Of a DNA stretch of 64,000 nucleotides, positions 393 through 21,355 are shown piece by piece. The notes under the pieces are model-generated. The model was not told where the DNA came from. It did no database searches and saw nothing but the letters and a program-made list of their open reading frames with translations. Position 1 is the stretch's first letter. Each line of letters opens with the position of its first letter. Origin of the DNA: Aminobacter aminovorans (lineage in GTDB: Bacteria; Pseudomonadota; Alphaproteobacteria; Rhizobiales; Rhizobiaceae); contig NZ_UFSM01000001.1 in NCBI RefSeq assembly GCF_900445235.1, positions 434,001 to 498,000 on the forward strand, read 5' to 3'. Both the position numbers and the translations under genes were made by a program.

Positions 393-1943
393 ATGAGAAA
401 AACGCGGAGCGCAGATGCGCTTCGCCTTCTGCTGCTGGCCAGCCTGACGCTGGCTCTGCATGCGACAGCGGCGATTTCAGGCGATGCGGCTCCCGCAGGG
501 CTTGCCACCGAGCGCACCGACCTCAATCCCAAGGACAAGGCGCGCGTCGAAAAGATCGTCCGGCCGACCACCGATTTCACCAAGCCCGAGCAGTTCGAGC
601 GCATGCAGGGCGGCGCCGGCACCTCGGAAAAGCGTGTCAATCAGGATGCGTTTTCACAATCCTCGGCCAACATCACCTTCGAGGAGGAAGGCACCTTCAA
701 GCTGGGCAACGGCATGTTCCGCAAGCTTTGGGTGTCGTCGCCGTCGTCGACGCAGGCCTCCGACGGGCTCGGGCCGTTGTTCAACGCCCGCGCCTGCCAG
801 AGCTGTCATCTCAAGGACGGCCGCGGCCATCCGCCGGAAGGCAGCAGCGACGCAACCTCGATGTTCCTCAGGCTTGCCCGCACGGCGGAGACGGCAGAGG
901 AAAAGGCCGCGATCGCCGAGCGCAAGGTGCTGAATTTCCCCGATCCGGTCTATGGCGGTCAGTTCCAGGACCTTGCCGTGCCCGGCCTCAAAAGCGAAGG
1001 CCGGATGGTGATTTCCTACCAGCAGTTTCCGGTCCAGCTCTCTGACACCATGACGACGCTGCGCTGGCCGATCTATTCGGTGACCGACCTCGGTTATGGT
1101 CCGATGGATCCGAAGACCACCCTGTCGCCACGCCTCACGCCGCCGATGATCGGCCTTGGCCTCGTCGAGCAGATCCACCCCGCCGACATCCTTGCCAATG
1201 CCGATCCCAACGACAAGGACGGCGACGGCATATCGGGCAAGGCCTCGATCGTGCGCGACCACAAATCAGGCGAACTGACGCTCGGCCGCTTCGGCTGGAA
1301 GGCCTCGGCGCCGTCGATCCGCCAGCAATCGGCCGATGCCTTCGCCGGCGACATCGGCATCTCGACGCCCGACGTGCCCAAGCACTGGGGCGACTGCACC
1401 AAGGGCCAGACGGCATGCCTGGAGATGCCCAACGGCGTGCAGGAGCGGCTCGGCGGCAGCGAAGCCCCCGACCCGATCATGGATCTGGTCACCTTCTATT
1501 CGCAGAACCTGGCGGTGCCGGCCCGGCGCGACATCGACGACCCGCAGGTGCTGCGCGGCAAGAAGATGTTCTACGAAGCCGGCTGCGCTTCCTGCCACAC
1601 GCCGAAATTCGTCACCCGCCGCGACACCCCCAACAAGGCGCAGTCGTTCCAGCTGATCTGGCCCTATTCCGACTTCCTGCTGCACGACATGGGCGACGAA
1701 CTCGGCGACGGCCAGCAGGTCGGCGACGCCGGCGGAAACGAATGGCGCACGCCGCCGCTGTGGGGCATCGGCCTGACCCATACCGTCAATGGCCACACCT
1801 TCTTTCTGCATGATGGCCGGGCCCGCAACCTCAGCGAGGCGATCCTCTGGCACGGTGGCGAAGGCCAGACGTCACGCGACCACTTTGCCGCGCTGCCGGC
1901 GCAAGACCGCGATGCGCTGGTCAAATTCCTGGAGTCGCTGTGA
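393..1943 (+). CDS. Di-haem oxidoreductase, DUF1111 family (MauG/cytochrome c peroxidase-like), periplasmic
   Basis: The predicted protein has 516 residues and two CxxCH haem c sites, ACQSCH near residue 134 and GCASCH near residue 398. That arrangement matches the DUF1111 'thiol oxidoreductase-like' di-haem family. I chose the ATG at 393 rather than an in-frame start at 333 because it gives a clean signal peptide (MRKTRSADALRLLLLASLTL, ending near ATA-AIS); the extra 20 residues of the longer form look unrelated. Its TGA overlaps the imelysin ATG, indicating translational coupling. In related genomes these genes travel with imelysin and DUF1513 genes in iron-regulated operons, so a role in periplasmic iron redox chemistry is inferred. 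The exact substrate is unknown. Confidence 0.85.
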   Translation: MRKTRSADALRLLLLASLTLALHATAAISGDAAPAGLATERTDLNPKDKARVEKIVRPTTDFTKPEQFERMQGGAGTSEKRVNQDAFSQSSANITFEEEGTFKLGNGMFRKLWVSSPSSTQASDGLGPLFNARACQSCHLKDGRGHPPEGSSDATSMFLRLARTAETAEEKAAIAERKVLNFPDPVYGGQFQDLAVPGLKSEGRMVISYQQFPVQLSDTMTTLRWPIYSVTDLGYGPMDPKTTLSPRLTPPMIGLGLVEQIHPADILANADPNDKDGDGISGKASIVRDHKSGELTLGRFGWKASAPSIRQQSADAFAGDIGISTPDVPKHWGDCTKGQTACLEMPNGVQERLGGSEAPDPIMDLVTFYSQNLAVPARRDIDDPQVLRGKKMFYEAGCASCHTPKFVTRRDTPNKAQSFQLIWPYSDFLLHDMGDELGDGQQVGDAGGNEWRTPPLWGIGLTHTVNGHTFFLHDGRARNLSEAILWHGGEGQTSRDHFAALPAQDRDALVKFLESL

Positions 1944-3022
1944 TGGCTGGACGTTCCCTGGCTGCTGCCCTCGCCTTCTGCCTGTTCCTGCCTTCGACCG
2001 CCACCTCCGCCAGCGAGGCGTCGGCCAAGGTGATCGCCGATGCCATCGACGGCTTCATCCGTCCGGCATACGGCCGACTGGTCGAGACGACAGCCGAACT
2101 CAGTAAGTCGATGATTACACTTTGTGCAACGCCGTCGACCGACACGCTTGCTGCAGCGCGCGCGTCATTCGCACGCACCACGGCGACCTGGTCGGAGGTC
2201 GAGATCATCCGTTTCGGGCCGATCACCGAACAGAACCGGCTGGAGCGCCTGCTGTTCTGGCCCGACCGCAAGGGAACCGGGCTGAAGCAGGTGCAGTCGG
2301 CCCTCGCCGACAAGGATGCCACCGCCACCGACGCAGCCACGCTGAGCCAGAAGAGCGTTGCCATGCAAGGGCTCGGTGCGCTGGAATTCGTATTGTTCGG
2401 CACCGGCGCCGACGAGCTCGCCGGCAACTCGGCCGCCTATCGCTGCGCTTATGGCAAGGCGATTTCAGGCAACATCGGGGCCATCGCCTCCGACGTCGAT
2501 GCCGGCTGGCGCGACGACAATGGCTTCGCCAGCCAGTGGAAGAACCCCGGTGCTGGTAATCCGCTCTACCGCGACGACAGCGAGGCCCTGACCGAACTGC
2601 TCGAAGTCTATGTCAACGGGGTCGAACTGGTGCGCGACGTGCGCCTCAACGGCTTCTTCGGCAAGAATACCGCGTCCGACAAGCCGAAGCAGGCGCTTTA
2701 TTGGCGCTCGGAAGGCACCGGCGCCTCGCTGGCCGGCAACATATCAGGCATGGAAGCGCTTTTCGCCGCTTCGAAATTCGGCGAGCTGGTGCCGGCCGAC
2801 GAGCGCTGGGTTGCCGAGTCGATCGGCTTCGAATTCACCAATGCGCAGGCGGCGGCGGCCGCCGTCACCGGCCCGATCGATGCGGCCCTTGCCGACCCGG
2901 CCAAGCGCGAGAAGCTCGGCTATTTCGCGCTGGTAACGTCGAGCCTGTCCGAGCAGTTCGGCACCAGGCTGTCCGGGGCCCTCGGCCTGACCGCCGGTTT
3001 CTCGTCGCTCGACGGCGACTGA
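1943..3022 (+). CDS. Imelysin family protein (peptidase M75/IrpA-like), periplasmic iron-associated
   Basis: The product has 359 residues with an N-terminal signal (LAAALAFCLFLPSTATSASE). The segment MQGLGALEFVLFGTGADEL corresponds to the imelysin GxHxxE region, but in a form without the His, as in many EfeO/IrpA-like imelysins that are not proteases. The ATG at 1943 shares bases with the TGA of the preceding di-haem gene; a GTG one codon earlier is possible but less likely. The gene lies in a tight same-strand run with DUF1111 and DUF1513 genes after bacterioferritin, so a part in ferric or ferrous iron acquisition is the best inference. Proteolysis is unlikely. Confidence 0.85.
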   Translation: MAGRSLAAALAFCLFLPSTATSASEASAKVIADAIDGFIRPAYGRLVETTAELSKSMITLCATPSTDTLAAARASFARTTATWSEVEIIRFGPITEQNRLERLLFWPDRKGTGLKQVQSALADKDATATDAATLSQKSVAMQGLGALEFVLFGTGADELAGNSAAYRCAYGKAISGNIGAIASDVDAGWRDDNGFASQWKNPGAGNPLYRDDSEALTELLEVYVNGVELVRDVRLNGFFGKNTASDKPKQALYWRSEGTGASLAGNISGMEALFAASKFGELVPADERWVAESIGFEFTNAQAAAAAVTGPIDAALADPAKREKLGYFALVTSSLSEQFGTRLSGALGLTAGFSSLDGD

Positions 3023-3034
3023 GGAGGCAGGACG

Positions 3035-4144
3035 ATGCGCACGCCGCTGTTCGACCGTCGCGATTTCCTCAAGGCAGCTGGCGCGGGCTTCGTGCTTTCG
3101 CTCAGCCCGGCCCGGCGCGCGTTGGCGCTCGAAACCGACTCAATGTTCGCCACGACTTACCAAGCAAGGACTGGCGAGTATGGCGTGGCGATCCTGTCCG
3201 AGGCCGGCAAGATTCTGCACAGCGTCACCCTGCCCGAACGCGGTCACGACGTTACCTTCGATCCCATCTCGCGCAAGTCGGTGGTGTTCGCGCGCCAGCC
3301 CGGCACCTTCATGCTGTTCTTCGACCACACCGGCAAGGACGCGCCGCTGACCATCCCGAGCATCGCCGGCCGGCACTATTACGGCCACGGCGTGTTCTCG
3401 CCCGATGGCGCCCTGCTCTATGTGACCGAGAACGACTTCGACAACGCCGCCGGCATGGTCGGCGTCTATGACGCCCGCGACGGCTTCCGCCGCCTCGGCG
3501 AATTCCCGACCCATGGCGTCGGACCGCATGAGCTGATCCTGCTCGGCGACGGACGCACGCTCGCCATCTGCAATGGCGGCATCGAGACCCATCCGGATTT
3601 CGGCCGCGCCAAGCTCAACATTCCGACGATGAAGCCGTCCTTCGTGCTGGTCGACCGCGTCTCAAACGATCTCATCGAGAAACACGAACTGCCTGAAAAA
3701 CTTCACCAATTGTCGATCCGACACATGGACATCGACGCTGAGGGTACGGTCTGGTTCGGCTGCCAGCACGAGGGTCCGGCGAGCGAGAAGCCGTTGTTGA
3801 TCGGCCGTGCTGCGCGTGGCAAGGAACTCGAGATGCTCGACATGCCCGAGGGCATCCTCGGCGGTTTCCGCAACTATATCGGCTCGGTCGCAGCCAACCG
3901 CGACGCCGGGCTGATCGCGGTATCCTCGCCGCAAGGCAACGCTTGGGCGATGATCGAGGCGAAGACGGGCAAGGTTGTGGCAAAGAACGATCTTGTCGAG
4001 GTTTGCGGACTGGCGCCCGACCGCCACGGCTTCCTCGCCACGACAGGCGCCGGCCTGGTCGTCGAGCCTGACGGCAAGCAGACCGAGGATCCCGAGCATG
4101 TCTGGGACAACCACATGCTGCGCATCGACCTGGGAAATACGTAA
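3035..4144 (+). CDS. DUF1513 family protein, Tat-exported beta-propeller
   Basis: The 369-residue product starts with a twin-arginine signal containing RRDFLKAAGAGF, so it is probably folded in the cytoplasm before export to the periplasm. The body shows repeated blade-like segments (for example YYGHGVFSPDGALLYVTEN and HELILLGDGRTLAICNGG), typical of the DUF1513 propeller family. A strong GAGGAGG ribosome site lies in the 12-base gap after the imelysin stop, so it is the last gene of the iron-associated run. The biochemical role of DUF1513 is not established; by context it may be an accessory factor for the di-haem and imelysin proteins. The family call is strong, the function is inferred. 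Confidence 0.85.
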   Translation: MRTPLFDRRDFLKAAGAGFVLSLSPARRALALETDSMFATTYQARTGEYGVAILSEAGKILHSVTLPERGHDVTFDPISRKSVVFARQPGTFMLFFDHTGKDAPLTIPSIAGRHYYGHGVFSPDGALLYVTENDFDNAAGMVGVYDARDGFRRLGEFPTHGVGPHELILLGDGRTLAICNGGIETHPDFGRAKLNIPTMKPSFVLVDRVSNDLIEKHELPEKLHQLSIRHMDIDAEGTVWFGCQHEGPASEKPLLIGRAARGKELEMLDMPEGILGGFRNYIGSVAANRDAGLIAVSSPQGNAWAMIEAKTGKVVAKNDLVEVCGLAPDRHGFLATTGAGLVVEPDGKQTEDPEHVWDNHMLRIDLGNT

Positions 4145-4156
4145 GCTTTTGCTTAC
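4141..4156. terminator. Short hairpin between convergent DUF1513 and phnN genes
   Basis: GTAAGC-TTTT-GCTTAC is a perfect 6-bp inverted repeat with a four-base loop. It overlaps the stop of the DUF1513 gene and abuts the stop of phnN on the other strand. Position suggests a compact bidirectional terminator, although the stem is short and there is no long T tract. Confidence 0.4.
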
Positions 4157-4786
4157 CTAAATAAGACCTGACACGTCAGAGAAGGCGACGGCCTTGCGCA
4201 GCACCGCAAGGAAGCGTTCGCCGGCGATCTCGGCCGCACCGCTGTTGTCGATCGCCACATGGCCGGGGCCGCTGAGATCGTGCGGTGCGGTACGTGCGAG
4301 GCGCGCCAACACTTCGCCGCGCGATTCACGTCCGCGCGCCGCAAGCCGCGTGGCGAGTATCTCAGGCGATGCGGTGATTTCGACGACGGCGATATTGGCG
4401 TAGCGCTGGCGCAACGCCGGGATGACCCCGCGCGAGGTGTTGGCGACGACGACATGACCGACCGATATGGCATCGTCGACCGAAGCCGGAATGCCGTAGC
4501 GCAGTCCGTGTGCTTCCCATGACAGCGCGAAAGCGCCCGAAGCCTCTGCCTCAATGAAGGCCGCGTCGGCGAGTGTGTCGTGATCCTCGGTGGCAGCGTC
4601 GCTGTGGCGAGTGATGACGCGGCGGGCGAATTCGACGTGATCGTCGTCGGTCAGGCGCGCGCGGACATAGGCAATCAGCGTGTCCTTGCCGGCACCGCTG
4701 GGGCCGACCACCGCGACGAAGACGCCATTGCGGACAGGCGAGCCAAGGCGGGTCAGTTCACGCTCGATCAATGCTGAAACCATCAT
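4157..4786 (-). CDS. phnN: Ribose 1,5-bisphosphate phosphokinase (PhnN-like)
   Basis: The 209-residue product carries a P-loop GPSGAGKDTL near residue 29 and the guanylate-kinase-like features of PhnN (ARRVITR, ALSWEAHGLRYGIP, VVANTSRGVIPALRQRY). PhnN phosphorylates ribose 1,5-bisphosphate to PRPP, the last step of phosphonate catabolism through the C-P lyase route, and gives a minor PRPP source. No other phn gene is in the window, so this copy stands alone, convergent with the iron operon and downstream of a possible LysR remnant. There are two adjacent in-frame Met codons; the first is used here. Confidence in the family is high; the physiological role of an isolated copy is inferred. Confidence 0.88.
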   Translation of the reverse strand: MMVSALIERELTRLGSPVRNGVFVAVVGPSGAGKDTLIAYVRARLTDDDHVEFARRVITRHSDAATEDHDTLADAAFIEAEASGAFALSWEAHGLRYGIPASVDDAISVGHVVVANTSRGVIPALRQRYANIAVVEITASPEILATRLAARGRESRGEVLARLARTAPHDLSGPGHVAIDNSGAAEIAGERFLAVLRKAVAFSDVSGLI

Positions 4787-4839
4787 GCGACGTCATTTCC
4801 TCCTAGCCAGAACCCCCGCCCTGGCGGCGCCGGCCCTTT

Positions 4840-4986
4840 TCAGCTCGGCGCATTGAACATCTCCAGCACCGCGCTGTCACGCTCCATGGCTTGGACCAAG
4901 GGGCGGACGGCGGCACTGCGATGCCAATAGGCGATTTGCATGACGGAATGACGAAACGAGATGCGGAGCGGCAAATCCACCCCGCA
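4840..4986 (-). pseudogene. Possible C-terminal remnant of a LysR-type regulator
   Basis: Between phnN and prfC an open frame of about 48 codons on the minus strand reads VDLPLRISFRHSVMQIAYWH and ends VRPLVQAM...MFNAPS-stop. This resembles the tail of LysR effector domains, where a short strand is followed by an aromatic-His pair and a final helix. No helix-turn-helix or remaining domain is present; upstream of it lies the intact end of prfC. An ATG at 4941 could give a 33-residue peptide but has no convincing ribosome site. The call rests on weak, short similarity and may be chance. Confidence 0.28.
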
Positions 4987-4993
4987 TCATGCT

Positions 4994-6586
4994 TCAGGCG
5001 ACCTTGTCGCGGACCTGATAGTCTTTGATCGCGGCGAAGCGGATCATCTTCCAGCGCTCGGCCTCATAGTTGAGCGAGAACTCGTGCTGGGCGAGGAACA
5101 CCGGGTCGTTGTCGAGATCGCGGGCGATGTCGCCGCGATGGCTTTCGATGAAGCGGTGCAGGTCCGCCTTGTCGTCGGCATCGATCCAACGGCAGATCGA
5201 AAAACGCGCCATCTCGAAGTCGACCGGCAGCGTGTATTCCACCGACAGGCGCTCCTTGAGCACGTCGATCTGCAGCGCGCCGACGACGCCGACGATGGCC
5301 GGCGAGCCGTCCTCGGGCTGGAACAGCTGGACCACACCTTCCTCGGCCATCTGGTGCAGCGCTTCCTTGAGCTTCTTGGCTTTCATCGCGTCGCCGAGGC
5401 GGACGCGGCGCAGGATCTCAGGCGCGAAATTCGGCACACCGCGGAACAGGATGTCCTCGCCCTCGGTCAGCGTGTCGCCAATGCGCAACGTGCCGTGATT
5501 GGGGATGCCGACGACGTCGCCGGCATAGGCCTCGTCGGCGGTGATACGCGAACGGGCGAAGAAGAACTGCGGCGCCGACAGGCTCATCTGCTTGCCGGTA
5601 CGGACCAGCTTGGCCTTCATGCCGCGCTTGAGCTCGCCCGAGCAGACGCGGACGAAGGCGATGCGGTCGCGGTGGTTGGGGTCCATGTTGGCCTGGATCT
5701 TGAAGACGAACGACGTCATCTTCTCTTCCGTCGCCTCGACCTTACGCGCGTCGGCTTCCTGGGCGCGGGGTGCGGGGCCAATGTCGCCGAGCGCCTCGAT
5801 CAGGTCGCGGACGCCGAAGTTCCTGAGCGCCGAGCCGAAATAGACCGGCGTCAGATGCCCCTCGCGGAACGCCTGCAGGTCGAACGGACGGCAGGCCTCG
5901 CGGGCAAGCTCCAGTTCCTCGATGAAGGCCGGGCGTTCGTTGTCGGGCAATAGGCCGGCGGCGCGGTTGGAGTCAGGGCCATGCACCGGCGTCCGCTCGG
6001 CCTCGGCGTCGCCGCGGCGCACCGCGTTCTGGGCGAGGTGATAGGTGCCGGAGAAAGTCTTGCCCTGGCCGATCGGCCAGGTGATCGGGGCGGTGTCGAG
6101 CGCCAGCTTTTCTTCGATCTCGTCGAGAATCTCGAAAGTGTTGCGCGCCTCACGGTCCATCTTGTTGACGAAGGTGATGATCGGGATATCGCGCAGGCGG
6201 CAGACCTCGAACAGCTTCAGCGTGCGCGGTTCGATACCCTTGGCGGCGTCGATGACCATGACCGCGCTGTCGACAGCCGACAGGGTGCGATAGGTGTCGT
6301 CGGCGAAGTCTTCGTGGCCCGGCGTATCCAGCAGGTTGAAGACGTTGTCGCCATACTCGAAGGTCATGACGGAGGTTACGACCGAAATGCCGCGCTCGCG
6401 CTCGATCTTCATCCAGTCCGAGCGGGTCTGGATCTTGTCCTTCTTGGCCTTGACCTCGCCGGCGAGCTGGATCGCGCCGCCGAATAACAGCAGCTTTTCG
6501 GTCAGCGTCGTCTTGCCGGCGTCAGGGTGCGCGATGATCGCGAAAGTACGGCGGCGCGCCACCGCCTTTTCGATGTCTTCAGCCAT
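4994..6586 (-). CDS. prfC: Peptide chain release factor 3
   Basis: The 530-residue GTPase has the translational-factor motifs AHPDAGKTTL (G1), DTPGHEDF (G3) and NKMDR (G4), and the RF3-specific stretch KIQTRSDWMKIERERGISVV. RF3 binds the ribosome after peptide release and uses GTP to eject RF1 or RF2. Length equals the usual size of about 530 residues. The gene is single, with about 190 bases of repeat-containing DNA separating its start from the upstream AlkC-like gene on the same strand. The start is supported by a GGAAAC-type site and by conserved MAEDIEKAVARRRTFAIIAH. Confidence 0.96.
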   Translation of the reverse strand: MAEDIEKAVARRRTFAIIAHPDAGKTTLTEKLLLFGGAIQLAGEVKAKKDKIQTRSDWMKIERERGISVVTSVMTFEYGDNVFNLLDTPGHEDFADDTYRTLSAVDSAVMVIDAAKGIEPRTLKLFEVCRLRDIPIITFVNKMDREARNTFEILDEIEEKLALDTAPITWPIGQGKTFSGTYHLAQNAVRRGDAEAERTPVHGPDSNRAAGLLPDNERPAFIEELELAREACRPFDLQAFREGHLTPVYFGSALRNFGVRDLIEALGDIGPAPRAQEADARKVEATEEKMTSFVFKIQANMDPNHRDRIAFVRVCSGELKRGMKAKLVRTGKQMSLSAPQFFFARSRITADEAYAGDVVGIPNHGTLRIGDTLTEGEDILFRGVPNFAPEILRRVRLGDAMKAKKLKEALHQMAEEGVVQLFQPEDGSPAIVGVVGALQIDVLKERLSVEYTLPVDFEMARFSICRWIDADDKADLHRFIESHRGDIARDLDNDPVFLAQHEFSLNYEAERWKMIRFAAIKDYQVRDKVA

Positions 6587-9346: not shown

Positions 9347-9742
9347 TCAATCCGGCATCGCCGAGGCGATCTCGACCAGGCAACCATTGAGATCGCGGAC
9401 ATAGCCGACGATCTGTCCCCAAGGCTTGTTCTCAGGTGGCTTCACCTGGCTGGCGCCGGCGGCGACCGCCGTTCGGTAGGCATCGTGAGGATCGGGAAAG
9501 ACCAATGCGAGTTCGAAGCCCGCCGCCAGGTCGCTCTTGCGGTTGGCGCGAATGGCCAGGCCGTTCATCTCCGCCATCGCCTCGCCGGCAAAAGACAAAG
9601 TCGTCGGGCCGGTGTCCATTTCGGCGTAGAGATTGCTCTCGTGGATGAATTTGCGACGCAGGCCGAATGCGGCTTCGTAAAAAGAAACGGTCGCTTCGAC
9701 GTCGGCAACGTACAGGATGGTGTAGCCAAGGCGCACTGTCAT
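9347..9742 (-). CDS. VOC family protein
   Basis: The 131-residue product is a second glyoxalase-fold protein, opening MTVRLGYTILYVADVEATVS and closing KPWGQIVGYVRDLNGCLVEI. The ATG at 9742 has a GGAGA site and fits the family start better than an upstream Met that adds 18 unrelated residues. It lies just upstream of the VOC/DUF1801 pair on the same strand with a gap of about 57 bases, so the three may form one transcript. The substrate is unknown. Confidence 0.78.
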   Translation of the reverse strand: MTVRLGYTILYVADVEATVSFYEAAFGLRRKFIHESNLYAEMDTGPTTLSFAGEAMAEMNGLAIRANRKSDLAAGFELALVFPDPHDAYRTAVAAGASQVKPPENKPWGQIVGYVRDLNGCLVEIASAMPD

Positions 9743-9873
9743 CGAAGATCTCCAGGCAAGGTGCCAGATGGACGGCCCGCGCGCCAAGTTTGGCACGCAA
9801 GCAGGGGAACCCCGTCCGGCTTATGCGCGGATCATCACGCCTCGCTCCAATTCGATCTTGAACAAATCGGACA

Positions 9874-10683
9874 TCAGTCGAGCAAACTGACGAGGGTTAC
9901 ATCGGGAAGCCGCGCCGGCGAGAAGCCGCCCATGCGCCTGATGACGCGGCTCATATGCGCCTGGTCCGAAAAGCCTGCCTCAAGCGCTGCCGCTGCCGGA
10001 CTGAGGCGGTGATCCCGCAGCAGTCGCAGGGCGCGGTGGAACTGCAGAACGGCCGCGAATGCCTTTGGCGTCAGCCCCGTCGCCTTGACCACAAGGCGCT
10101 GCACGGTTCGGTCTGAAAGGCCGTGCATCTCAGCCACCTCCCTGATGCGCAGTCGTCCGCCCGATGCGTGAAAGGCGCTGATCACGCTGCGCGCCAGAGG
10201 CGCCGGCCTGAAGCGGCTGGCAGTGGCGCGCTGGCCAACGAAGGCCGTCAGTCGCGCGACGAGTTCCGTTTGGTCGCGCGCAGGCGCGCAGAGCGCCTCA
10301 AGCCCGGGGCATGCCGAAACAGCGTCCGGGCCGATCAGATTGGCGTTCGCCAGATCGGTCGGTTCAAAACCGAGCACGCTTTCGAAACAGCCCGGTCGAA
10401 TGCGAACGCCGGCAAAGCCCATGCCTGGTTCGATGGCAACATCGTAGAAGCGCGTTACCGGACCGGTAACGACGACAGTCGCACTGTTGATCGGCTTTTG
10501 TCCGGCATCGAACCTGAGGATGATGTCGCAACGGCCGTCCGGCAAGACACGGTAGCTTCCGGCGCGATCGCTGACCGACGTCCACACGGCCTCGACCTCG
10601 TCACTGACGTCGGCGGCCAGGCCCAGTTCCGAGTAGCGAGCCGACAAGGTCATTTCTCTAGCCAGCTCGATCCGCTTGCGCAA
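9874..10683 (-). CDS. AraC family transcriptional regulator
   Basis: The 269-residue product has a C-terminal double helix-turn-helix (IREVAEMHGLSDRTVQRLV and AALEAGFSDQAHMSRVIRRM) preceded by an N-terminal domain containing YRVLPDGRCDIILRF and a cupin-like core. This is the AraC subgroup with a small beta-barrel sensor domain. It precedes the VOC genes on the same strand and might control them; this is inference from proximity only. Length is normal for the family. Confidence 0.82.
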   Translation of the reverse strand: MRKRIELAREMTLSARYSELGLAADVSDEVEAVWTSVSDRAGSYRVLPDGRCDIILRFDAGQKPINSATVVVTGPVTRFYDVAIEPGMGFAGVRIRPGCFESVLGFEPTDLANANLIGPDAVSACPGLEALCAPARDQTELVARLTAFVGQRATASRFRPAPLARSVISAFHASGGRLRIREVAEMHGLSDRTVQRLVVKATGLTPKAFAAVLQFHRALRLLRDHRLSPAAAALEAGFSDQAHMSRVIRRMGGFSPARLPDVTLVSLLD

Positions 10684-15321: not shown

Positions 15322-16329
15322 ATGAGCCAATATGACGTGCTGTGCATCGGCAACGCCATCGTCGACATCATCGCGCAATGCGACGAGGCCTTTCTCACCG
15401 ACAACGGCATCATCAAGGGCGCGATGAACCTGATCGACGCCGAGCGCGCCGAACTGCTCTATTCCCGCATGGGCCCGGCGATCGAAGCCTCGGGCGGCTC
15501 GGCCGGCAACACGGCTGCCGGCATCGCCAGCTTCGGCGGCCGCGCCGCCTATTTCGGCAAGGTTTCCCGCGACCATCTCGGCGAGATCTTCAGCCACGAC
15601 ATCCACGCCCAGGGCGTCGCCTTCGACACCAAACCTCTTGAAGGGGCGCCGCTCGACGGCACGCCGCCGACGGCGCGCTCGATGATCTTCGTCACCCCAG
15701 ACGGCGAGCGTTCGATGAACACATATCTCGGTGCCTGCGTCGAGCTCGGGCCAGACGACGTCGAGGCCGACAAGGCGAGCGGCGCTGCGGTCACCTATTT
15801 CGAAGGCTATCTGTGGGACCCGCCGCTGGCCAAGGAAGCGATCCGCATGACCGCGGCACACGCGCACGCCGCCGGCCGCGAAGTGTCGATGACGCTGTCG
15901 GATTCGTTCTGCGTCGACCGCTACCGCGCCGAGTTCCTCGAACTGATGCGCTCGGGCACCGTCGACATCGTTTTTGCCAACTCCCACGAGATCAAGTCGC
16001 TGTACGAGACGTCGTCCTTCGACGAGGCGCTCGCCCAGATCCGCAAGGACTGCAAGATCGCCGCCGTCACCCGCTCGGAGAAGGGCTCGGTCATCGTGCG
16101 CGGCGACGAGACGGTGGTGATCCAGGCGACCGAAATCCGCGAGCTCGTCGACACGACGGGCGCTGGCGATCTCTACGCCGCAGGTTTCCTCTATGGCTAC
16201 ACGCAAGGGCGCTCGCTCAAGGATTGCGGCGACCTCGGCTCGCTCGCCGCCGGCCTGGTCATCCAGCAGATCGGCCCACGCCCACGGCAGAATTTGAAGC
16301 GCGAGGCCGAACAGGCAGGGTTGCTCTGA
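15322..16329 (+). CDS. PfkB family adenosine kinase-like sugar/nucleoside kinase
   Basis: The 335-residue product carries the PfkB C-terminal signature VDTTGAGDLYAAGFLYGY near residue 275 with the catalytic Asp, and the N-terminal GGSAGNTAAGIASFGGRAAY motif. The pattern is that of the alphaproteobacterial adenosine kinase-like proteins that sit beside an EI24 gene. It would phosphorylate adenosine or a related nucleoside or sugar with ATP in the cytoplasm. It is divergent from the EI24-like gene and is followed by a long repeat-rich gap. Confidence 0.85.
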   Translation: MSQYDVLCIGNAIVDIIAQCDEAFLTDNGIIKGAMNLIDAERAELLYSRMGPAIEASGGSAGNTAAGIASFGGRAAYFGKVSRDHLGEIFSHDIHAQGVAFDTKPLEGAPLDGTPPTARSMIFVTPDGERSMNTYLGACVELGPDDVEADKASGAAVTYFEGYLWDPPLAKEAIRMTAAHAHAAGREVSMTLSDSFCVDRYRAEFLELMRSGTVDIVFANSHEIKSLYETSSFDEALAQIRKDCKIAAVTRSEKGSVIVRGDETVVIQATEIRELVDTTGAGDLYAAGFLYGYTQGRSLKDCGDLGSLAAGLVIQQIGPRPRQNLKREAEQAGLL

Positions 16330-16950
16330 GGTCTTCCTTCACCCCGTTTACGGGGAGAAGGTACCCCGTAGGGCGGGGGCGGCGCAAACCTGCCGGCTCT
16401 CATTCCTCCCCCTGTCCTGCCGGACATCTCTCTCGGGGGACCAGCAGCCACTTGCGCTTTTGCCCCCACCCCCCATTGTCGCCATCGCAGAACCGGCGCC
16501 TCGCCTGACGCTGCCAATCTCCCCCCTTGCGGGGAAGATGTCCGACAGGACAGAGGGGGGTGCTGTCCCACGCACCTCTCCATACGGCCCGTTGTCGATC
16601 TAGACATTGCGCATGAAAATCCGGAAAGCAGGGCCGTGCCTGCCGAATGTCAGTTAGTGGCGCGACGTTCGCCCCGCCGGCGATTTTCGTTCCTGTCCGT
16701 TCCGCTTTTCGGGCACGGGCATTTTCGCCCCGATCCCACCAGCGCATCTGCCCGGAGGTGAACCTTCGGACGCCCCCGGCAACAGCCTACGTCAGCCCAA
16801 TGCCGGAGGCGCCGGCTCCTCTCCGCATATCACCGTCGCCGGCGTTTCCGCGGGAGGAACTAAGGGGGACGATAATACGGGAGGTGGCGAGGGCGTGGAA
16901 AACGGGGCCGGATTTCGTGCGGATTGCTGACAGATGGTCACAGGCTTGGG
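16330..16950. other. Gene-free repeat-rich segment left of the DUF2971/DUF4917 island
   Basis: No convincing gene is present in these 621 bases. The first part holds GC-rich repeats. One pair of inverted arms around CCTGTCCTGCCGGACATCT (about 16410-16428) matches AGATGTCCGACAGGACAG (16536-16553), spaced by about 107 bases. A block at 16510-16529 (GCTGCCAATCTCCCCCCTTG) recurs inverted at 18905-18923. From about 16590 to 16950 the sequence shows no feature I can name; a 110-codon open frame at 16647-16979 is proline/arginine-rich and overlaps the DUF2971 3' end, so it was not called. Confidence 0.6.
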
Positions 16951-17628
16951 TTAGTCAACTTCCACATCGTAGCCTCTGACTCTGCTCCTTACGATGTGAT
17001 AGCGAGAAAGATTTGCCTCAAGAAATTGAGCAACGTTCGCGGACATACGTGGACCCAGAATAATTCGCCGAATTGCCGCTCGATCAAACCGGACTAAGCC
17101 CCGCTCTGGGATGAACAACCGCCACTCTCTCTCGTATGACCAACTATGATGTTTTGTTGAGAGTATCCACTTCGCAAGTCTTCGTGGATTTTCCAGATCG
17201 CTTCCAATATCGAGTAATTGATCAGCATAACTGACGCGCGAGAAGCTCGTATTGTCCGCTAGGGTCTCTCGCAGTACTCTGAAGTCGTACTCTATGCAGA
17301 TTCCTTTGAATGAGTCGGCATAGTGGGCCCACATTAGCGCTTGCTGCCAGACCTCACTAAAACAGGCAATCCCGACGGACGTCTTCCCATCTCGGATCAG
17401 GGTTCGCGCACGCTCCCATTGTGGCTGTCCACGTGCAGCATCGCCAGCGCGGTAAAGTCCTTCCATTGCGTCGTTCAGGTCGTGATATTCACCGCACCAA
17501 AGCCTGCCTTCATTTAGGCCTTCGATCTCCCGGCGAGTACTTTGATTTGGAAAATCTGGAGCAACACCAATTTTTCGAAACCTGTACAACAAGGCAGGCG
17601 GAGCATAGGTTTCGATGGTCGCGGTCAT
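16951..17628 (-). CDS. DUF2971 family protein (accessory island)
   Basis: The 225-residue product opens TIETYAPPALLYRFRKIG and has the DUF2971 hallmarks: GRLWCGEYHDLNDAMEGLY near the N-terminus, VGIACFSEVWQQALMWAHYADSFKGICIEYDF in the middle (quoted in full only as family pattern: CFS...MWAHYA...GICIEY), and YEREWRLF later. DUF2971 proteins occur sporadically in bacterial accessory regions and have no proven activity. I chose the ATG at 17628, 11 bases after AGGAG; a TTG eight codons upstream is possible. It is divergent from the DUF4917 gene across 60 bases, and both are visibly less GC-rich than flanking genes, suggesting joint acquisition. Confidence 0.8.
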   Translation of the reverse strand: MTATIETYAPPALLYRFRKIGVAPDFPNQSTRREIEGLNEGRLWCGEYHDLNDAMEGLYRAGDAARGQPQWERARTLIRDGKTSVGIACFSEVWQQALMWAHYADSFKGICIEYDFRVLRETLADNTSFSRVSYADQLLDIGSDLENPRRLAKWILSTKHHSWSYEREWRLFIPERGLVRFDRAAIRRIILGPRMSANVAQFLEANLSRYHIVRSRVRGYDVEVD

Positions 17629-17688
17629 TAGTACGCAGTCTCCTCTCCGCAATCGTGAGACATCTAGGTATTTTTCTTGGAGACATAT

Positions 17689-18747
17689 ATGTGGTCGTTT
17701 GAGGACGCAATTACCGACTCAACACAATTCTCAAAGCGCCATTTGCTTCTCGGAAACGGCTTTAGCATCGCACTGCGGCCCGATATATTCCATTATGGAT
17801 CTTTGTTTCAAAGAGCCGATTTTTCCAACCACTCGCAATTGCCGAAGGTCTTTGATGCTTTAGCTACTCAAGACTTTGAACTAGCAATTCGGAGCTTGGA
17901 AGCTAGCGCCAAAATCATCCCAATCTATGGCATTGATGGCAGCGCAAGCTCCGTAGCAATGTTGGACGACGCAAAAGCTCTAAAAGATATCCTCGTTGAG
18001 ACTATCGCGGCAAATCACCCTGACATTCCAGTTGATATTCCGGATGCGAAGTTTTGGGCATGTCGTACGTTCCTTCACTACTTCCTCGGCCCCAATGACG
18101 GTCAGGTTTTCACGTTAAACTACGATCTGCTCCTCTATTGGACTCTCATGCACGAGGACGCCCCCCTTGCCACAGAACCAATCCACCTCACCACCAATGA
18201 TGGATTCGGAAATGACGAGACCGACCCGACTGCGGACTATGTCGTTTGGCAAGGCGAAACCGGAGCCCATAGCGCGAGGGTGCATTTCCTTCACGGCGCC
18301 TTGCACTTGTTCGATGCAGGGGATGACCTTCAAAAGTACACTTGGATTCGAACAAACGCCCGACTCGTGGACCAAGCTCGTAGCGCCATCGCCGGCAACA
18401 AATTTCCGCTGTTCGTTGCAGAAGGCACTAGTTGGCAGAAAAAGGCGAAGATCCGGCACAACGCATATTTGTATCAAGGCTTCAAGCAGTTGGTCGCTAA
18501 TGCGCAACAAACCAAAGTATGTTTTTTCATACATGGGCATTCGCTAGCGGAAAACGACGATCACATACTGAGGCGGCTAGGCACTGGACGCTTCCCGAAA
18601 CTTTACGTTAGTTTGTTCGGCGACCCCTCCTCCGACAGCAACAAGCATATCATAGCGCGAGCACAGGCTTTGGCAGAGATGCGAAAGCCGTCATACCCCC
18701 TGAATGTAGACTTCTACGATGCAGCTTCTGCAAAGGTATGGGGTTAG
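17689..18747 (+). CDS. DUF4917 family protein, SIR2/AbiH-like candidate defence protein
   Basis: The 352-residue product has a glycine-rich N-terminal motif LLLGNGFSIAL near residue 20, like the nucleotide-binding loops of SIR2-like and AbiH proteins. FTLNYDLLLYW near residue 140, FLHGALHLF near residue 205 and IHGHSLAENDDHILRRL near residue 285 recur in the order seen in SIR2-type folds. This matches the DUF4917 family. The ATG at 17689 has a GGAG site six bases upstream and was preferred to a TTG four codons earlier. The gene is divergent from DUF2971 and has low GC (29 of 60 bases in the line starting 17881), unlike its neighbours. NAD cleavage or abortive infection is only an inference. 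Confidence 0.75.
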   Translation: MWSFEDAITDSTQFSKRHLLLGNGFSIALRPDIFHYGSLFQRADFSNHSQLPKVFDALATQDFELAIRSLEASAKIIPIYGIDGSASSVAMLDDAKALKDILVETIAANHPDIPVDIPDAKFWACRTFLHYFLGPNDGQVFTLNYDLLLYWTLMHEDAPLATEPIHLTTNDGFGNDETDPTADYVVWQGETGAHSARVHFLHGALHLFDAGDDLQKYTWIRTNARLVDQARSAIAGNKFPLFVAEGTSWQKKAKIRHNAYLYQGFKQLVANAQQTKVCFFIHGHSLAENDDHILRRLGTGRFPKLYVSLFGDPSSDSNKHIIARAQALAEMRKPSYPLNVDFYDAASAKVWG

Positions 18748-19066
18748 AGAGTAGCACGGCCCCGCTTCGTCGCTCCCTCGGCCCGCCGGCACTGCCGCGG
18801 ACACCTAGGGATCCTTTGCCTCTGCCCTGCCGGGCGTTCGTCGTTCGAAAAGCCAAGCAATTGGCTTTTCGTTGCCTCCGGCAACCACTCCTCACCCCCC
18901 CCCACAAGGGGGAGATTGGCAGCCTCGACGGCCTCGCCCAACCGTCATCAGCGAAAGGTGACGGCAGCGCCATGCCCTCCGCTATGGCTCTGGGCCTTGA
19001 GTCGCTTCAATCGACAAATCGTTGTCGATTGATCGGCCCTTCGACAAGCTCAGGGCCGACCGCGCC
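18748..19066. other. Gene-free repeat-rich segment right of the DUF2971/DUF4917 island
   Basis: There is no convincing gene in these 319 bases. They hold a perfect hairpin at 18846-18871 and a C8/G5 block with CAAGGGGGAGATTGGCAGC at 18905-18923, which is the inverse of the block at 16510-16529. A further short dyad lies near 19008-19030 (TCGACAAATCGTTGTCGA). The rest shows nothing I can name. Confidence 0.6.
18846..18871. repeat. Perfect 11-bp hairpin downstream of DUF4917 gene
   Basis: CGAAAAGCCAA and TTGGCTTTTCG form an 11-bp perfect stem around a GCAA loop, about 100 bases after the DUF4917 stop. It could terminate that transcript or be part of the dispersed repeat found here. Confidence 0.6.
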
Positions 19067-21355
19067 TCAAGTCCCCGCGTTATAAGCCGCGATCGCTGCC
19101 ATGTTGACGATGTCGGAGTCCTTGGCATTCAGCGAGACGATCTGGACCGGCTTGTTGAGTCCGACGAGCAGCGGGCCGATGACTGTCGAGCCACCGAGTT
19201 CCTGCAGCATCTTGGTCGAGATGGCGGCGGAGTGGAATGCCGGCATGACCAGCACGTTGGCCGCACCCGAGAGGCGGCAGAAGGGGTATTGCTGCTGCAT
19301 CAGGCGGTGGTTAAGGGCGACGTCGGCAGCCATTTCGCCGTCATATTCAAAATCGACGCGGCGCTTGTCGAGGATCTTGACCGCTTCCTGGACACGCTCT
19401 GAACGCTCGCCGGCGGGGTGGCCGAAGGTCGAGTAGGCGAGCATGGCCACGCGGGGTTCATAGCCCATCCTGCGGGCGAAGTGGGCGGCTTCCTCGGCGA
19501 TGTCGGCGATCTGCTCGGCATTGGGCATGTCGTGGACGGCGGTGTCGGCGACGATGACGGTGCGGCCGCGGGCGAGCACGATCGACACGCCGATGACGCG
19601 GTGGCCGGGCTTGGCGTCGATGACGCGGCGGACGTCTTCGAGCACGGTCGAGTAGTTGCGGGTGACGCCTGTCACCACGCCGTCGGCATCTCCAAGGGCG
19701 ACCATGCAGGCGGCGAAGTGGTTGCGGTCATTGTTGATCAGGCGCTGGCAGTCGCGCAAAAGGTAGCCCTTGCGCTGCATGCGCTCGTAGAGGAAGTCGG
19801 CATAGATGCCGTTGCGGCGCGACAGGCGGGCATTGATAATCTCGAGGCCCGGCTTGTTGAGGTCGATGCCGGCGTGCCGGGCGTTTTCCTTGATGATGTC
19901 GTCGCGGCCCAAAAGGATGGCGGTGCCGAGCTTCTGGTTGACGTAGGACACGGCGGCCCGCATCACCTGCTCTTCCTCGCCCTCGGCGAAGACGATGCGC
20001 TTGGGCTGGCGGCGGACGCGGTCATAGATGCGCTGCAGCGTCGATGCGATCGGGTCGCGGCGGGCGGAAAGCTCGTTGGCGTATTTGTCGAGATCGAGGA
20101 TCGGCCGTCCGGCGACACCCGATTCCATGGCGGCCTTGGCGACAGCGATCGGGATCGCCGAGATCAGGCGCGGGTCGAACGGCACCGGGATGATGTAGTT
20201 GGGGCCGAATTTCGGCCGGTTGCCCTGATAGGCGGCGGCGACGTCGTCGGGCACGTCCTGGCGGGCGAGCTCGGCCAGCGCATTGGCGGCGGCGACCTTC
20301 ATCGCGTCGTTGATGGTGGTGGCACGAACATCGAGCGCGCCGCGGAAGATATAGGGGAAGCCGAGCACGTTGTTGACCTGGTTCGGATAGTCCGAACGGC
20401 CGGTCGCCATGATGGCGTCGGTGCGGATCTCGGCGACCTCCTCGGGCGTGATCTCCGGATCGGGATTGGCCATGGCAAAGATGATCGGGTTCTTGGCCAT
20501 GGACTGGATCATGGCCGGTGTCAGCGCGCCCTTGGCGGAGAGGCCGAAGACGATGTCGGCGCCGTCCATAGCGTCGGCCAGCGTGCGCGCCTCGGTCTTC
20601 ACCGCATGCGCCGACTTCCACTGGTTCATGCCTTCGGTGCGGCCCTGGTAGACCACGCCCTTGGTGTCGCACAAAATGACATTGTCAGGCGTGAAGCCCA
20701 TCGACTTGATCAGCTCGATGCAGGCGATGCCGGCGGATCCGGCGCCGTTGCAGACAAGCTTGGCCGTCTTCATGTCGCGGCCGGTGATGGCGAGCGCATT
20801 GATCAGGCCGGCTGCGGCGATGATGGCGGTGCCGTGCTGGTCGTCATGGAAAACGGGGATGTCCATCAGCTCGCGCAGGCGCTGCTCGATGATGAAGCAC
20901 TCGGGCGCCTTGATGTCCTCGAGGTTGATGCCGCCGAAGGAGGGGCCCAGGAAACGCACGCAGTTGATGAACTCATCGGCGTCTTCGGTGTCGACCTCGA
21001 GGTCGATGGAATCGACATCGGCGAAGCGCTTGAACAGCACCGCCTTGCCTTCCATGACCGGCTTGGAGGCAAGCGCGCCGAGATTGCCCAAGCCCAGGAT
21101 TGCGGTGCCGTTGGAGATGACGGCGACCATGTTGCCCCTGGTCGTGTAGTCATAGGCGCGTGAGGGATCCTCGGCGATGGCCTTCACCGGAACCGCGACG
21201 CCGGGCGAATAGGCGAGGCTGAGGTCGCGCTGCGTCGCCATCGGCTTTGTCGGCACCACCTCCAGCTTGCCGGGCCGACCCATGGCGTGGAACTCGAGCG
21301 CCTCCTCTGCGGAAACAGAGGGGCCGGAATTGTCGGGTTTCCTTGGTGTTGCCAT
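19067..21355 (-). CDS. maeB: NADP-dependent malic enzyme with C-terminal phosphotransacetylase-like domain
   Basis: The 762-residue product combines a malic enzyme domain (residues about 1-430: LSLAYSPGVAVPVKAI, FHDDQHGTAI, VCNGAGSAGIACIELI, MANPDPEI) with a phosphotransacetylase-like domain (about 440-762: KRIVFAEGEEEQVMRAA to the C-terminus). This fused form is usual for MaeB/TME and DME of rhizobia; the second domain is thought to be regulatory rather than catalytic. It decarboxylates malate to pyruvate, making NADPH. It is divergent from mutS with a 120-base shared promoter gap. DME versus TME type cannot be settled by eye, so NADP use is inferred from family. Confidence 0.92.
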   Translation of the reverse strand: MATPRKPDNSGPSVSAEEALEFHAMGRPGKLEVVPTKPMATQRDLSLAYSPGVAVPVKAIAEDPSRAYDYTTRGNMVAVISNGTAILGLGNLGALASKPVMEGKAVLFKRFADVDSIDLEVDTEDADEFINCVRFLGPSFGGINLEDIKAPECFIIEQRLRELMDIPVFHDDQHGTAIIAAAGLINALAITGRDMKTAKLVCNGAGSAGIACIELIKSMGFTPDNVILCDTKGVVYQGRTEGMNQWKSAHAVKTEARTLADAMDGADIVFGLSAKGALTPAMIQSMAKNPIIFAMANPDPEITPEEVAEIRTDAIMATGRSDYPNQVNNVLGFPYIFRGALDVRATTINDAMKVAAANALAELARQDVPDDVAAAYQGNRPKFGPNYIIPVPFDPRLISAIPIAVAKAAMESGVAGRPILDLDKYANELSARRDPIASTLQRIYDRVRRQPKRIVFAEGEEEQVMRAAVSYVNQKLGTAILLGRDDIIKENARHAGIDLNKPGLEIINARLSRRNGIYADFLYERMQRKGYLLRDCQRLINNDRNHFAACMVALGDADGVVTGVTRNYSTVLEDVRRVIDAKPGHRVIGVSIVLARGRTVIVADTAVHDMPNAEQIADIAEEAAHFARRMGYEPRVAMLAYSTFGHPAGERSERVQEAVKILDKRRVDFEYDGEMAADVALNHRLMQQQYPFCRLSGAANVLVMPAFHSAAISTKMLQELGGSTVIGPLLVGLNKPVQIVSLNAKDSDIVNMAAIAAYNAGT

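Follow-up and report, generated by a model that had tools for sequence, protein, structure and literature searches.

A divergent DUF2971 and DUF4917 gene pair in Aminobacter aminovorans as probable defence cargo of a repeat-bounded hotspot

What are two genes of the nameless families DUF2971 and DUF4917 doing head to head between a pfkB-family kinase gene and a malic-enzyme gene of Aminobacter aminovorans? The question concerns a stretch of 64,000 nucleotides (contig NZ_UFSM01000001.1, positions 434,001 to 498,000; hereafter the window, with positions counted from its first letter), in which an original prediction, made from the letters alone, had singled out this divergent pair as a possible undescribed two-gene defence or toxin-antitoxin-like module. 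On balance, the analysis favours the pair as horizontally acquired defence cargo in a pfkB/malic-enzyme hotspot, in which DUF4917 would be a stand-alone effector of SIR2 fold and DUF2971 a second, independent effector; both are probably defence genes. The two families are already known as phage-defence candidates, and what is unusual here is that DUF2971 may have an ADP-ribosyltransferase (ART) fold and that the slot is bounded by a repeat.

Both open reading frames (ORFs) lie where the original prediction had placed them, on the two sides of a 60-base spacer, and its family labels hold, with Pfam scores well above the curated cut-offs (DUF2971, E 6.8e-11, 43.8 bits vs a cut-off of 22; DUF4917, PF16263, E 7.8e-62, 209.9 bits vs 28). 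In PADLOC-DB the DUF4917 protein matches PDC-S21 (E 1.2e-118) and the DUF2971 protein PDC-S31 (E 1.7e-40), each over most of its length, these matches being judged by E value, with no curated cut-off given; NCBIfam gave no match. The base counts by which the pair had been set apart are right (29 of 60 G+C in the line at 17881, 35 of 60 at 15361), and gene-wide values are more telling: the guanine-plus-cytosine content (GC) of the DUF2971 and DUF4917 genes is 0.509 and 0.503 vs a window mean of 0.652 (standard deviation 0.018, minimum 0.607), and their third-position GC (GC3) is 0.50 and 0.56 vs 0.82 (standard deviation 0.05), the comparison set being 45 other window genes longer than 450 bp called by a rough custom gene caller. 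The dip forms one island, with GC of about 0.49 at 17-18.5 kb.

The hotspot in which this island lies argues strongly for a defence role. Homologues of the pfkB anchor (at least 96% identity) and of the malic-enzyme anchor (at least 94%), which in the window is followed by mutS, occur each in nine of ten genus genomes, own included, and G007 (81% complete) holds only distant homologues of them. The anchors stand about 295-575 bp apart in G003, G004 and G006, 2.7 kb apart in the window's own genome and 2.5-4.3 kb apart in G001, G005, G008 and G009, and in G002 the slot is split over two contigs, with the break at a dispersed repeat; the slot is therefore occupied in six of the ten genomes, empty in three and not found in one. 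Because BLASTN homology of the left flank stops at 16942-16944 and that of the right flank resumes at 18799-18899 (at 18899 in most alleles), the island consists of the two genes and little else. Each of the six occupied genomes holds a different module: a reverse transcriptase matching Drt6 in G001 (E 2.8e-144), a PDC-M11A/B pair (6.9e-118 and 2.7e-31) with an AAA protein in G005, a D12 adenine methyltransferase (PADLOC MTase_II, 7.5e-92) with a DndB-domain protein (DpdB, 6.9e-21) in G008, and a GmrSD-like protein (Pfam, 9.6e-23) with a Schlafen/AlbA_2 protein in G002. The cargo of G009 (L094, 869-3273) is a candidate new defence module of two low-GC genes, one with an AAA_16 match below the curated score and neither with a match in PADLOC. 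The site thus behaves as a defence hotspot, with different defence genes at the same place in relatives, and at E<=1e-10 PADLOC-DB matches six of nine slot cargo proteins, both proteins of the pair (2/2) and none of 20 other window genes, which is positional evidence for the pair as defence cargo.

Conservation of the hotspot beyond the genus was considered and rejected; in an 81-genome sample of relatives surveyed by eye, among the anchor matches listed at strict E-value limits, the convergent pfkB/malic-enzyme neighbourhood occurs in the own genus only, and outside it the two genes are far apart or on separate contigs, or, in G017, G021, G022 and G033, within 5 kb in another orientation.

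On its left the slot is bordered by a dispersed repeat some 0.3 kb long (roughly 16630-16942), which has a sharp right end. Cargo begins at one identical point in the window's own genome, G001, G005, G008 and G009, right after the 21-bp sequence at this end, and in G002 the 21-bp end, close to a contig end, directly adjoins the cargo; in G009 only the last ~50 bases of the repeat align at the junction. With up to two mismatches the 21-bp end occurs in 32 places in seven of the ten genus genomes (reversed-pattern control, 0), and none was found at that limit in G003, G004 and G006, where the slot is empty. Of the 30 places fetched (L143-L172), 29, the own copy among them, match the repeat across at least 48 bp beside the motif, and the exception, L164, may be a chance match. 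Cargo may thus have been exchanged through recombination at these repeats. Away from the hotspot, three of five scanned repeat flanks hold defence-type genes and two do not, and no enrichment is claimed because the scanned subset (10 of 60 ORFs, 6 of 30 loci) was chosen mainly for low GC. Copies off the hotspot border RmrA/RmrT (L146, 1633-3021), a DEDDh exonuclease with PDC-M70A (L151, 1-1255) and an HSDR_N_2 domain below its curated score (L159, 1635-2450).

Table 1. Positions in the window of the gene pair, its slot and the flanking anchors and repeats
Feature	Position	Strand	Remarks
pfkB-family carbohydrate kinase gene, left hotspot anchor	15322..16329	+	Pfam PfkB, E 5.5e-40
21-bp right end of dispersed repeat	16922..16942	+	cargo begins at its edge in six occupied alleles
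Cargo island	16943..18898	.	absent or exchanged for other cargo in genus-mates
DUF2971 gene	16951..17628	-	225 aa; predicted fold weakly DarT/Tpt1-like (ADP-ribosyltransferase); PADLOC PDC-S31
Divergent spacer between both likely starts	17629..17688	.	60 bp
DUF4917 gene	17689..18747	+	352 aa; predicted NAD-consuming effector of SIR2 fold; PADLOC PDC-S21
Palindrome-type intergenic repeat, right junction	18899..18926	.	inverted partner 16507-16534; inverted repeat I1, 28 nt, 82% complementary
Malic enzyme gene with phosphotransacetylase domain, right hotspot anchor	19067..21355	-	Pfam malic, Malic_M, PTA_PTB

As to what the pair would do, the structure predicted for DUF4917 has the Rossmann-type fold of SIR2, and as a prediction this fold is well supported. 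Its input (A4) comprised the window protein, 13 of 120 listed relatives and 65 of 80 loci, short, partial or redundant rows being left out of this and the other fold alignment. The SIR2/AbiH-like fold that had been proposed from four motifs, which do occur in the order given (residues 19, 141, 200 and 281), is thereby supported by structure prediction together with a fold search. The Asn of the N-Y-D motif and the His of the H-G motif are invariant (79/79 rows of the alignment) and are taken here to be the catalytic residues at the nicotinamide adenine dinucleotide (NAD) site of SIR2, the register of the motifs to Escherichia coli SIR2 coming from a weak alignment (E 0.51). A sequence search of the PDB with the single window proteins gave no match. 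No AbiH profile was found for DUF4917, which matches only PF16263 in Pfam (E<=1) and only PDC-S21 in PADLOC, libraries that presumably include an AbiH model. DUF4917 would lie idle in healthy cells and be triggered by infection; it would then hydrolyse or otherwise use up NAD+ by means of the motif residues N144 and H202, and the loss of NAD+ would block the growth of the phage while sacrificing the cell, by way of abortive infection.

The family is rare and patchy, in keeping with the accessory status that had been proposed: it occurs in one of ten genus genomes (the window's own only), in seven of 394 family genomes, each of another genus and six above the family cut-off, and in eight of 385 class genomes. 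It was also found in 32 plasmid records and 21 viral-collection contigs, and no match was met in the INPHARED phage records.

For DUF2971, the predicted fold is weakly like that of the ADP-ribosyltransferases DarT and Tpt1, with DarT as the best fold match (input A3, the window protein and 107 of 120 listed relatives), and an ART fold is possible. A PDB search with the DUF2971 profile gave no match, the six matches at E<=0.001 in a viral fold library were of no helpful function, and a second look at the Foldseek list (VIA) leaves a fold missing there still possible. The protein would most likely act as an independent second effector with an ART-like fold and possible transferase activity, its transcription running separately on the opposite strand. 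A further step, which is tentative and rather doubtful, is that DUF2971 represents an unrecognised ADP-ribosyltransferase branch used as an antiphage effector and deployed with a stand-alone SIR2 enzyme, the island attacking the NAD+ pool in two ways as hotspot cargo exchanged beside the end of the dispersed 0.3-kb repeat. In two other loci, L131 (6004-8196) and L135 (3645-6132), DUF2971 genes adjoin PIN-domain genes, one by annotation and one by Pfam.

Does the pair work as one unit? It is unlikely that the two genes form a two-component system, in which a transferase-like DUF2971 would sense infection or modify a target and so license or restrain DUF4917, both being needed and their expression coupled through the divergent start region. 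By reading, the likely starts are ATG 17628 on the minus strand and ATG 17689 on the plus strand, each with a purine-rich, ribosome-binding-like stretch ahead of it, and the spacer holds a 13-nt sequence at 17657 with a near-copy at 17680. No sigma-70-like match was found inside the 60-bp spacer; a promoter and terminator scan gave three of each, near the shuffled expectation and none in the spacer, an Rfam scan over 16000-19400 gave no match, and a tRNA scan found none. The same divergent order recurs in Mesorhizobium neociceri (L011), with 81% identity for DUF4917 and 63-72% for two DUF2971 pieces, which shows that in at least one case outside this genome the pair has moved or been kept together. 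In L062 DUF2971 lies on the same strand between DUF4917 and HsdR, inside one type I restriction locus, and among 101 viral-collection loci both families occur in L183 only, about 3.1 kb apart. There (1061-6014) they appear as separate cargo of a prophage-like contig, DUF4917 adjoining an integrase-like gene; the phage-gene labels are assumed, and the contig is by its appearance presumably a P2-type prophage.

Against such a unit, DUF2971 adjoins DUF4917 in only two of 80 loci (L011 and L062; in L020 it is 5.5 kb away), these being the best 80 of 323 confirmed loci, some from related clades and some truncated at contig ends, and in L011 DUF2971 is broken, split over two frames (9384-9961), while the neighbouring DUF4917 is intact. 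In the family sample DUF4917 is present in seven genomes, DUF2971 in 40 (search A1, with 78 of 120 listed proteins and at most seven candidates scored per genome) and both only in the window's own, and in the class sample the counts are eight, 46 and three, with adjacency in the own genome only. Shared genomes besides the own one number 0 vs about 0.6 expected under independence in the family and two vs about 0.8 in the class, not clearly above chance. An obligate unit of DUF2971 and DUF4917 is mostly not what these data indicate, and the two genes would be independent of one another; the conserved two-gene unit of the original prediction is not upheld by either sample, M. neociceri being the case that stands against this.

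Of the 80 DUF4917 loci, 36 carry an HsdR, HsdS or HsdM homologue no more than 7 kb away, in every case on the strand of DUF4917 itself; 31 carry at least two of the three on that strand, and in 11 the HsdS gene ends at most 230 bp upstream and the HsdR gene starts at most 5 bp downstream. DUF4917 stands between HsdS and HsdR genes in L018, L034, L040-L045, L059, L063 and L073, the HsdR-side ends overlapping or nearly touching. Of 119 near neighbours (at least 100 aa, no more than 300 bp away), 116 were scanned one by one against Pfam, three long HsdR-like proteins being dropped, and gave 23 Methylase_S, 11 HSDR_N and six N6_Mtase matches. On plasmid pRL11 of Rhizobium johnstonii the annotation places DUF4917 just upstream of methyltransferase, S, FRG-domain and R genes, with a divergent DUF262 gene near the locus. 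In two genera (L137, 4350-6565; L138, 4256-6435) DUF4917 is directly downstream of a protein-kinase gene, the kinase match being tested in L137, where a 1067-aa gene, HsdR-like in appearance, comes next after DUF4917. The survey thus found defence genes near DUF4917 relatives, which together with the slot cargo of genus-mates bears out the expected placement near defence genes, and found no co-occurrence with DUF2971 clearly above chance.

The gene for PrrC lies among Hsd genes. It is quite unlikely that the window copy is a displaced gene of that kind, normally silenced by the Hsd complex and freed when a phage disables restriction, and here an orphan that may be otherwise regulated or inactive. 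The 31 loci with two or three Hsd genes on the same strand and the 11 in which DUF4917 stands where PrrC would stand favour it, the principle being that set out in PMC3506569; the models used detect no Hsd gene up to 7 kb from DUF4917 in 44 of the 80 loci (some are cut by contig ends), the window's slot has none either, and its DUF4917 reading frame is intact. The association of DUF4917 with Hsd genes fits a proposal of 2012 (PMC3506569), by which Sir2-type enzymes may, like PrrC, be suicide partners of type I restriction systems. With this link, and with both families in PADLOC-DB as phage-defence candidates, the families cannot be called undescribed.

A toxin-antitoxin module, in which one of the proteins would neutralise its partner, is very unlikely and was rejected: beyond adjacency, it can appeal to DarT, part of a toxin-antitoxin system, as the best fold match of DUF2971, but the genes are divergent and not one operon, co-occurrence is not clear, nearly all carriers of either family in both genome samples lack the other, and neither protein has an antitoxin or macrodomain match in Pfam at E<=1; nothing positive besides adjacency speaks for this part of the original prediction. 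It is just as hard to believe that these are accessory metabolic or regulatory genes (e.g., a protein deacylase and another protein) landed by chance. Of the candidate defence module, the SIR2/AbiH-like fold, the accessory status and the defence placement stand; the undescribed families, the conserved two-gene unit and the toxin-antitoxin notion are not supported.

Two nameless families would in this way gain a role open to testing: DUF4917 that of a NAD-consuming effector of SIR2 type, often found beside type I restriction genes, and DUF2971 possibly that of a transferase effector. The small pfkB/malic-enzyme slot offers a compact natural collection for finding more defence genes, the G009 cargo being one candidate.

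Among known systems, SIR2-HerA (Nezha) was rejected: no HerA ATPase adjoins DUF4917, whose neighbours are DUF2971, pfkB and malic enzyme, and the SIR2 subunit of that system shares only 12-16% identity over aligned residues with DUF4917, which forms a separate Pfam family. PDC-S21 and PDC-S31 are single-gene database candidates, and no paired system of both was met in the searches made; no mention of them was found among the papers listed, nor any defence work by title on DUF4917 and DUF2971, which does not exclude published work in either case. With the Sir2-type enzymes that the 2012 hypothesis ties to type I restriction systems (PMC3506569) DUF4917 shares the hsd genes beside its relatives in 31 of 80 loci, whereas the window copy has none in its slot, by Pfam, and hence no PrrC-like place in an hsd operon. 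DUF2971 has no DarG-type macrodomain antitoxin beside it, its neighbours being DUF4917 and the pfkB gene, and it has no detectable sequence relation to DarT of DarTG or to the RNA 2'-phosphotransferase Tpt1/KptA; its weak likeness to both is one of predicted fold.
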